Shown piece after piece: positions 10,645 through 20,725 of a DNA stretch of 32,063 nt (its first letter is position 1; each line of letters starts with the position of its first letter). The stretch spans positions 1 to 32,063 of the forward strand of contig CAMWQI010000009.1 in assembly GCA_947176345.1 (NCBI GenBank), in the 5' to 3' direction. The translations under genes and the position numbers were made by a program. The DNA comes from an uncultured Ruminococcus sp. (GTDB lineage Bacteria; Bacillota; Clostridia; Oscillospirales; Ruminococcaceae). The notes under the pieces are model-generated. The model was not told the DNA's origin and ran no database searches. It worked only from the letters and a program-made list of their open reading frames with translations.

Positions 10645-10974
10645 TTATTCAGCCGAAAATTTTTTTATTTCCTCCTGTACGATATTTTCCATATCACACA
10701 AGACTTTATATTTAGCCCGCTCCGGAGTAATCCTGTAAAGTTCAACAAGCTTTTTTTCGTCTTTGCTTACGTCGCTCCGATATTCTCCCAGAAGTATATA
10801 GTCAATGGAAGTATTCAGATAGTCGGCAATTTTAATGAGAACATCACCTTTAGGAAGTTGTCCCTTTTTCCAGTTACCAGTACTTCCAGTACTAATGCCT
10901 AATTTACTAAGCATATTGGTTACAGTTGTTCCTTTTTCCTTACAAATTTCACGTAATCTTCCGTAAAAATCCAT
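10645..10974 (-). CDS. XRE-family helix-turn-helix transcriptional regulator
   Basis: 'MDFYGRLREICKEKGTTVTNMLSKLGISTGSTGNWKKGQLPKGDVLIKIADYLNTSIDYILLGEY'; internal ATG at 10974 preferred over ORF-track start because of the GGAGGTGAT ribosome-binding site. Confidence 0.88.
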   Translation of the reverse strand: MDFYGRLREICKEKGTTVTNMLSKLGISTGSTGNWKKGQLPKGDVLIKIADYLNTSIDYILLGEYRSDVSKDEKKLVELYRITPERAKYKVLCDMENIVQEEIKKFSAE

Positions 10975-18890: not shown

Positions 18891-18918
18891 AAAAGGACGG
18901 TTAAAACCGTCCTTTTTT
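18891..18918. terminator. Bidirectional intrinsic terminator
   Basis: AAAAGGACGGTT-AA-AACCGTCCTTTTTT between convergent genes. Confidence 0.88.
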
Positions 18919-19636
18919 AATATACCTGATTATATATATTTTTTCCCTCATTAAGAATTTTTTCAATCATTTCCTGATTATATACCTTACGGATATTTTC
19001 CGGCAATTCTGAACCGTCAATACTACTGTAATAATCTTCACCGTTGCCGTCTGTCACCGTAAGTGAACGCATTTCGCCAGAAAACCTCACATTGAAAGTA
19101 TATTCATTTTCCTGATAGCTACAGTCAAGAAACTTTGCATGAAAATCCGTTGAAAAATCCCAGAATGATGGCATTTCCTGATGTGGAAGTACATACGTTA
19201 TGTTATTGTCTTTCATAATGTAGAAACGTTCTGAACTTTCCGAAAAGCCTAAAGAAGTTATACCCTGATTGAAATTTTTTTCAAGTTTGTTTTTCCTTGA
19301 TGCCCATATTATACCATATACAGCAAGAGTAATCATAAAACATATAATTATTATAGAAATAACTATAAATACCGTGCGTTTAAGCCTGTTCCATTTTATT
19401 CCGACTGCTGTTTTTTCTGAAATTTGATTTACCATTTCTTTGTCCTCCCTCAAAAGTTTATCAAGCGATACACCAAACTGGTCACTTATTTTGACGATAG
19501 TGTTCAAATCGGGATAGCTTTTCCCGTTTTCCCAGTTTGAAACTGTCTGTCGTGTCACAAAAAATATCCCTGCAAAATCCTCCTGTGACATATTGTTTTC
19601 CGTCCGTATCTGTCTTATTGATTTGCCTATGTTCAT
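18917..19636 (-). CDS. XRE-family HTH regulator with a C-terminal membrane segment
   Basis: 'MNIGKSIRQIRTENNMSQEDFAGIFFVTRQTVSNWENGKSYPDLNTIVKISDQFGVSLDKLL', TM 'TVFIVISIIIICFMITLAVYGIIWA'. Confidence 0.9.
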   Translation of the reverse strand: MNIGKSIRQIRTENNMSQEDFAGIFFVTRQTVSNWENGKSYPDLNTIVKISDQFGVSLDKLLREDKEMVNQISEKTAVGIKWNRLKRTVFIVISIIIICFMITLAVYGIIWASRKNKLEKNFNQGITSLGFSESSERFYIMKDNNITYVLPHQEMPSFWDFSTDFHAKFLDCSYQENEYTFNVRFSGEMRSLTVTDGNGEDYYSSIDGSELPENIRKVYNQEMIEKILNEGKNIYNQVY

Positions 19637-19825
19637 AAAAATTCACCTCCTTGTGAGATAATTATAATCCAGAATTTCCAGAAAGTAAAGCAAATATCCT
19701 TTTACACATCCGCAAATATTCTTTGCACGTCGGTTTACAGCTGAAAAATTAACACACGAAATCCAAAAAATTAACACGCAAAACACAAAAAAGACGGATT
19801 TAGTTCGATACTCATAAAGAAGTTT

Positions 19826-19863
19826 AAGCCCCGAAACAATTATTGATAACTGCTTCGGGGCTT
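19826..19863 (-). terminator. Hairpin downstream of the 19899-20183 ORF (terminator-like)
   Basis: AAGCCCCGAA (19826-19835) and TTCGGGGCTT (19854-19863); no long T run. Confidence 0.55.
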
Positions 19864-19898
19864 ATTATTAATACTTGATTACTCACATAAATCAGAAT

Positions 19899-20183
19899 TT
19901 AACCTGCAATAAAACCATAGTGTTTTGTATCATGGTATACAAATCCTTTTCGGTTTAAATAATCTTCAAATATTTTCCTGCCTGTATCATTAAGGTCTTT
20001 CAATTCTTCTTTCTTCAGATACAGCCAACCGCCTGTTTCAGTTGATAAAATATCGCCTATATTACATTCTCCTATTTCTTCTACGGGAACGGTCATTGTG
20101 CAATTTTCAGGCATAAATGGGCATTCAACTATGACGCTGTTATCATCAACCGCTATAACCGCCCAAGTATCTATTGTTATCAT
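19899..20183 (-). CDS. Hypothetical protein, 94 aa
   Basis: RBS AAAGGAG upstream of ATG; consensus promoter at 20224-20252; coding not otherwise proven. Confidence 0.65.
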   Translation of the reverse strand: MITIDTWAVIAVDDNSVIVECPFMPENCTMTVPVEEIGECNIGDILSTETGGWLYLKKEELKDLNDTGRKIFEDYLNRKGFVYHDTKHYGFIAG

Positions 20184-20223
20184 AAAATAGTCTCCTTTTA
20201 AATTCCGATTTATCTTAGTAATA

Positions 20224-20252
20224 ATTATACATCAAAGCCGTTACATTGTCAA
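20224..20252 (-). promoter_or_regulatory. Consensus promoter of the 94-aa ORF
   Basis: Minus strand TTGACA (20252-20247), 17 bp, TATAAT (20229-20224). Confidence 0.8.
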
Positions 20253-20341
20253 TAGAAACGCCATAGCACTTTTGACTGAAAATCATAAGTGCTATAGCTT
20301 AAACTTCTTTATGAACACCACTATTTACTCCGGCTTTTATT

Positions 20342-20725
20342 TTATACTTTTTTTCTGATTGTACGCTTCACAATACCTTTAAGACGTTCACAGGTATCAT
20401 GCGGAAATTCTGTCACAAACTTTACAGCGTGTTCGTGTGCCTCTTCCTGAGGCAGTTTAAGGAAATTATGAAAGAACATATATACTTCATTGAAATTAGA
20501 GAATATTTCATTTACAGCATTTTCGCCGTCTGCGGTAAGTACAACGCTATTACAGAAATCTTCATAGACCAGTCCACAATTAGCCATACAACGCAACATC
20601 TTGCTTACACTTGGACGTGATACTCCTAAATGCCTTGCAATACTCACGCTACGCACATATTCGTCAACTTCAGAAAGTTCTTTTATAGCAATAAGATATT
20701 TTATATGACCTGCACAGTGTTTCAT
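20342..20725 (-). CDS. DtxR/MntR-family metal-dependent regulator-like protein
   Basis: 'YVRSVSIARHLGVSRPSVSKMLRCMANCGLVYEDFCNSVVLTADGENAV' winged HTH; RBS AAGGAGTGA. Confidence 0.82.
   Translation of the reverse strand: MKHCAGHIKYLIAIKELSEVDEYVRSVSIARHLGVSRPSVSKMLRCMANCGLVYEDFCNSVVLTADGENAVNEIFSNFNEVYMFFHNFLKLPQEEAHEHAVKFVTEFPHDTCERLKGIVKRTIRKKV

Follow-up and report, generated by a model that had tools for sequence, protein, structure and literature searches.

The textbook case of a platform dedicated to collecting and expressing single genes is the integron. Engineered recombinase-mediated cassette exchange swaps the gene that lies between two identical, inverted sites and leaves the surrounding frame in place; the gene can lie in either orientation. 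Mobile insertion cassettes, such as MIC231 and mic-qnrD, carry a passenger gene and its expression signals between terminal inverted repeats with no transposase nearby (PMC3913671). IS1272 moves by stem-loop-replacing transposition; its target is a stem-loop, not a sequence, and no target duplication is made (PMC5678879). The locus described here lies in a window of 32,063 nucleotides (the whole stretch of DNA analysed) from an uncultured Ruminococcus species whose genome is a 2.78 Mb draft in 296 contigs. It is one copy of a family of cassettes from which 119 non-redundant members were collected. No description of such cassettes was found in the open-access literature, several of the searches having been narrow.

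The family shares features with each of these systems. Like mobile insertion cassettes, its members hold a passenger gene between terminal inverted repeats without a transposase, but no target duplication is seen, no parent IS was found, they insert into terminator loops, and within the element one passenger is swapped for another (compare PMC3913671). With IS1272 they have in common the preference for a stem-loop and the lack of a target duplication, but here the target stem is kept and the loop region alone is interrupted (compare PMC5678879). As in integron cassettes (IntI/attI/attC) and CALINs, each unit is mobile, holds a single gene behind a very short leader and is expressed from a platform promoter; arrays form occasionally, and the cargo is diverse and of similar type (acetyltransferases and unknown small proteins). 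They differ from integrons in having no IntI and two inverted cores of about 15 bp per gene, not one folded attC per cassette in direct orientation. Their platforms are dispersed, each with a promoter and a terminator, and replacement, not array growth, is the rule. Compared with engineered cassette exchange, the Ruminococcus system is natural and its exchange recombinase is putative.

The window unit is located between the genes for a DtxR-like regulator (20342..20725), which is upstream of the cassette, and an XRE-type regulator (18917..19636), which is downstream, and all are on the minus strand. The initial annotation described a 503-bp unit bounded by perfect 18-bp inverted repeats. The repeats are present: TCATAAAGAAGTTTAAGC occupies 19812-19829, and 20297-20314 holds its exact reverse complement. 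They are the sole pair in the window, with no third match at up to three mismatches and 0.08 expected by shuffling. The bounding repeats stand, but the unit is longer than 503 bp: comparison with empty sites and other copies places the ends near 19799 and 20328, about 530 bp apart. The sequence and the conservation profiles define terminal inverted repeats at 20297..20328 on the promoter side (minus-strand GTAAATAGTGGTGTTCATAAAGAAGTTTAAGC) and at 19799..19829 on the gene-end side (inward reading TTTAGTTCGATACTCATAAAGAAGTTTAAGC; right-end profile, n=41).

Between these repeats, on the minus strand, are a 5' hairpin (CTATAGCACTT..AAGTGCTATGG, 20260..20298), a promoter, a 5' core, the cargo gene, a 3' core and the frame's own terminator hairpin (19825..19864). 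The promoter (20224..20252) is constant in the family, and here it is perfect, as had been proposed, with a 12/12 match to TTGACA-17-TATAAT reading from 20252 to 20224. Folding confirms the hairpins noted at both repeat ends: the 3' hairpin has an 18-bp stem (19825-19864, -27.5 kcal/mol, z -7.6) and the 5' hairpin has 12+5 bp (near 20260-20298, -22.1 kcal/mol, z -6.6). The inner core pair, absent from the initial annotation, was defined from the conservation profile. The 5' core (minus-strand ATAAATCGGAATTT, 20200..20213) is inverted relative to the 3' core (AAATTCTGATTTAT, 19887..19900) and has the RBS region directly after it, and the 3' core shares the last two bases of the stop codon. Searches of Rfam at the window hairpins returned no family, and the weak matches all fall elsewhere.

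The cargo is the 94-aa ORF (19899..20183, minus strand) previously recognized within the repeats. It has no family match, and searches of 59 relatives and of phage and plasmid collections detected no copy of it; the plasmids also lack the frame. Identification as a STIV turret protein or DUF3006 was rejected, the Pfam scores being far below cut-off. The single-sequence AlphaFold model has a pLDDT of 60, and no reading is drawn from it. A separate 22-nt repeat, T/CACACGCRAAATMCAAAAAA, lies outside the cassette at window positions 19744-19787 and recurs at L342:587-650 and near position 2491 of L354 (minus strand); in the window genome it is found beside terminators, sometimes in tandem.

The suggestion that the unit is a tiny non-autonomous mobile cassette with a cargo gene is supported by the recurrence of its ends around other genes, in this genome and in the genus, and by empty sites at the window locus. 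Within the host genome, inverted pairs of the 18-mer surround unrelated genes at C1:122357-122783, C1:15263-16025 and C79:3297-4015. These copies have about 110 bp on the promoter side and about 95 bp on the far side in common, with a different gene each time. When the frame ends are used as queries, at least a dozen frames are detected in this genome, several of them in short arrays. Frames occur across Ruminococcus and related genera: within the genus, 76/125 genomes have the 5' end and 50/125 the 3' end, and among sampled members of the family the 5' end is present in 31/299 genomes (15/126 genera). When named genomes were scanned for exact copies of the 3' core, 62 stretches were returned, mostly labelled Ruminococcus, R. 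flavefaciens included (strain XPD3002 has a core match), and the remainder are Oscillospiraceae or Clostridia MAGs with a few other labels. All frame and cassette counts are lower bounds, because nearly all of the genomes are draft MAGs whose contigs often end inside frames.

Profiles of the collected copies reveal one order of parts: a terminal repeat of about 28 bp (TTAAGA..CGATACTCATAAAGAAGTTT), the 5' hairpin, the promoter TTGACA-17-TATAAT and the 5' core TAAGATAAATCGGAATTTA, which the RBS region directly adjoins; after the single ORF come the 3' core AAATTCTGATTTAT(GCGA), a strong terminator hairpin and the second terminal repeat. The core-to-core length has a median of 532 bp and a range of 226-2403 bp. 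A second frame subfamily (TAAGCCCGAAAGCAG.. terminator, TTGACATAACAGTTTTTT promoter) is represented by L050, L051 and L052 (contigs C15, C158 and C83 of the window genome, G000); it has the same cores as the first, and the two coexist in one genome. In the arrays L133:3150-4800 (G124:C17) and L053 (G000:C167:4400-5166), each added unit is accompanied by its own diverged copy of the neighbouring host sequence. In L133 this copy is the end of the upstream gene and in L053 it is the promoter region downstream, as if the flank were duplicated with each addition. At L146:2854-4071 (G085:C253), two convergent cassettes have one common terminator hairpin, as if frames had recombined there. A viral contig from IMG/VR (L250, minus strand near 10794-10815) has a stop codon joined to the 3' core, ACTTATAAATTCTGATTTATGCGAATAA, with the rest of the frame missing.

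The empty sites that the initial annotation proposed to look for between the DtxR and XRE genes exist in ten relatives with the same gene order. The gap in these genomes is a compact intrinsic terminator only, for example AAAAGCCGGAATTATTCCGGCTTTTTTT in L159. In the window genome the two arms of the DtxR-like gene's terminator are directly outside the terminal repeats, the 5' arm AAAAGCCGGA at 20329..20339 and the 3' arm with its T-run, TCCGTCTTTTTT, at 19787..19798 (both minus strand). The window unit is thus in the loop of a host intrinsic terminator. The unit is not a fixed part of this locus, nor is its repeat unique to it. A second locus, L141/L242, has an empty site in L133 that is a plain terminator. 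Across 60 cassettes, the complementarity of the outer flanks has a mean score of 14.3, against 9.7 for randomly re-paired flanks (sd 0.27, maximum 10.5), and many flank pairs are obviously complementary, for example AAAAGACCGTTCCTTTAAG / CTTACAGGAACGGTCTTTT. Cassettes point either way with respect to the T-run of the terminator, without a clear bias (27 vs 17). In agreement with the initial annotation, neither a transposase nor a clear target-site duplication was found for the window unit; the empty-site comparison has the terminator arms in place of a direct repeat. The 5' hairpin is probably an insulator against read-through from the split host terminator. Because that terminator is split, the frame's two hairpins probably take over termination on both sides, which would make the insertion nearly harmless.

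The sharpest conserved feature of the family is the pair of near-identical inverted cores of about 15 bp, ATAAATCGGAATTT / AAATTCTGATTTAT, that brackets the gene. Information content is near 2 bits at most positions of both cores and 0.1-0.5 immediately inside; the edges are abrupt, and the cores are more conserved than most of the promoter. All 15 perfect core matches in the genome are inside cassettes. One difference between the cores is constant, with G in the 5' core and A at the matching place of the 3' core in 73/79. In 36/118 cassettes the stop codon TAA runs into the opening bases of the 3' core, always in exactly the same register, and about ten others have a reading frame that ends within the 3' core. 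The core identity could partly reflect a role in the mRNA. Contig C33 encodes a tyrosine recombinase close to a one-mismatch core, but it was rejected; the core is inside a topoisomerase-like gene, and its position is therefore regarded as coincidence.

Comparison of orthologous host loci shows that genes move INDEPENDENTLY of their frames. Four host loci have had the gene replaced and the frame kept, with homology broken at the cores. One locus carries a 131-aa ORF in L204 and a DJ-1/PfpI gene in L130 and L099, within an orthologous frame; the sequences are homologous along the 5' frame as far as ATAAATCGGAATT, the locus-specific variant AATATAAATC being shared, then lose homology and regain it at CTAAATTCTGATTTATGCGAG. 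The other replacements are L068 vs L147, L151 vs L134/L149 and L240 vs L283. Identity of the 5' frame is 0.93-0.96 at the first three loci (L204, L068, L151), compared with 0.82 +/- 0.06 for random frame pairs; at L240/L283 it is 0.85, no closer than random frames. Conversely, genes that are 92-99% identical over the full core-to-core length are found in unrelated frames, loci and species. The gene is 97% identical in L198/L287 (frames 0.77 and 0.83, against the same random value), 96% in L240/L123 (frames 0.81 and 0.82) and 97% in L248/L120 (frames 0.85 and 0.81), and an SMI1-type gene is another aligned case of the same gene in differing frames. In some other same-gene pairs the frames are alike too, which is what joint movement or common descent of whole units would produce. 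Cargo identity above frame identity could partly reflect stronger constraint on coding DNA. Cargo is 95-97% identical between species, compared with 76-88% for the host flanks of the DtxR locus (window genome versus relatives), which points to recent transfer of the genes.

Exchange has other outcomes as well. A single host locus has the gene in one genome and a gene-less frame in another (L140 vs L131), and in L141 an extra alpha/beta-hydrolase ORF is joined ahead of the ORF resident in L242. The 154-aa ORF of L147 is inverted between the cores and points away from the promoter, the one clear inversion among 119 cassettes. The units exchanged between genomes are single ORFs, mostly promoterless, and they are replaced between two short inverted sites with the frame retained. 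Two points go beyond the initial annotation: the target is an intrinsic terminator loop, and the gene is exchanged independently of the frame at the inner inverted repeats.

The 116 cargo ORFs fall into 89 families. A scan of 85 representatives identified nine GNAT acetyltransferases, three SMI1/KNR4 proteins, Imm42, SUFU and DUF4291, as well as glyoxalases, DJ-1/PfpI, HIT and GyrI-like proteins, CPBP proteases and hydrolases; immunity-like proteins are among the cargo. PADLOC matches are few and mostly weak, and the largest cargos scanned contain no recombinase. Two cargos match AAC(6') group E. Among the cassettes of the Ruminococcus group, L299:784-1422 encodes a relative of Vat streptogramin A acetyltransferases (264.6 bits, below the cut-off of 300) and L238:1590-2216 a relative of CatA chloramphenicol acetyltransferases, also below its curated cut-off. 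The Vat-, CatA- and AAC(6')-like cargos are homologies, and resistance is only putative.

Frames are dispersed in terminator loops, genes are replaced at fixed inner boundaries, and the same gene occurs across frames and species. The cassettes probably form a mobile gene-exchange system with two levels, in which frames enter terminator loops and genes are exchanged at the inverted cores. At the first level, a non-autonomous element with terminal inverted repeats of about 28 bp would enter the loops of host intrinsic terminators, presumably through a transposase that is supplied in trans and recognizes the outer repeats. At the second, an RBS-plus-ORF unit between the inverted cores would be replaced by, joined by or, in one case, flipped relative to other units. 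The simplest reading of this outcome would be a site-specific recombinase acting in trans on the inner cores, as two inverted sites around an insert are a geometry that would permit cassette exchange in either orientation, and the promoter/terminator frame would guarantee expression of any arriving ORF. No recombinase or transposase with these sites was found, nor was a transposase-bearing IS sharing the cassette ends met. An IS1182-type transposase was rejected as the mover, its DDE domain, PF13751, being absent from the window genome.

The main rival is ordinary homologous recombination, in which the frame ends serve as arms and RecA swaps the gene after transformation, transduction or conjugation without a dedicated enzyme. 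We consider it unlikely, but it accounts for the replacement: frames common to many loci and species provide arms of about 100 bp, and it fits the failure to find a recombinase. Because crossovers are not placeable inside the conserved cores, recombination through short homology is possible. However, the old frame stays at three of the four loci (0.93-0.96, against 0.82 at random), and both crossovers must consequently fall at or inside its inner edge, a confinement that the arms do not explain. Exchange also takes place between frames merely 72-83% identical, one gene is inverted (L147), and the cores are conserved above the promoter. Repeated insertion of complete mobile insertion cassettes (MIC or MITE with passenger genes) into the same terminators, with no exchange inside the frame, would be consistent with units bounded by terminal repeats without a transposase, with terminator targets and with empty sites. 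This explanation is improbable and already disfavoured, since frames with different genes are orthologous and have locus-specific variants such as AATATAAATC in common, and identical genes are in frames no more alike than random.

The inner pair might instead act in the mRNA, the 5' and 3' ends of the transcript pairing over about 14 bp for protection, with exchange a by-product. The position of the 5' core, shortly after the -10 box, would suit this, and so would the one constant mismatch, G opposite T, which RNA tolerates as G-U. Against this, the two cores do not covary in a compensatory way in 79 cassettes, what is fixed is the sequence itself, and the breakpoints and the one inversion map to the cores, so we assign this explanation only a slim chance. 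Similarity of function (single-gene units, a compact 5' leader, arrays and resistance-like cargo) could also suggest a diverged integron, that is, an attC cluster without its integrase. That origin is very improbable and already disfavoured: a pair of inverted cores, not a single attC, goes with each gene, every frame brings a promoter and a terminator of its own, and none of the 125 genus genomes has an integron integrase (TIGR02249) over the cut-off, with generic tyrosine-recombinase scores only, although the named control genomes likewise had none and so gave no positive control. The frames act like integron-type gene exchange without integron parts, because a single gene is swapped edge to edge between short mirrored sequences.

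The two-level exchange system favoured here could represent a new class of platform by which Gram-positive bacteria of the gut and rumen capture genes. To this broader proposal, with dispersed promoter/terminator frames in terminator loops, whole-ORF exchange at inverted 15-bp cores, a dedicated recombinase unrelated to IntI and a genus-wide pool of adaptive genes that includes relatives of antibiotic acetyltransferases, we give an even chance. If true, it would be a second, architecturally different solution beside integrons, widespread in a dominant fibre-degrading lineage of the gut and rumen, and it would supply a new pair of recombination sites. Terminator-loop insertion with self-insulating ends would be a neat route to a harmless mobile element, and the precise junction between stop codon and core opens the long-standing question of how an ORF is turned into a cassette to testing. 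The system would also explain the sharing of small adaptive genes among these bacteria, with relatives of streptogramin and chloramphenicol acetyltransferases in the pool.
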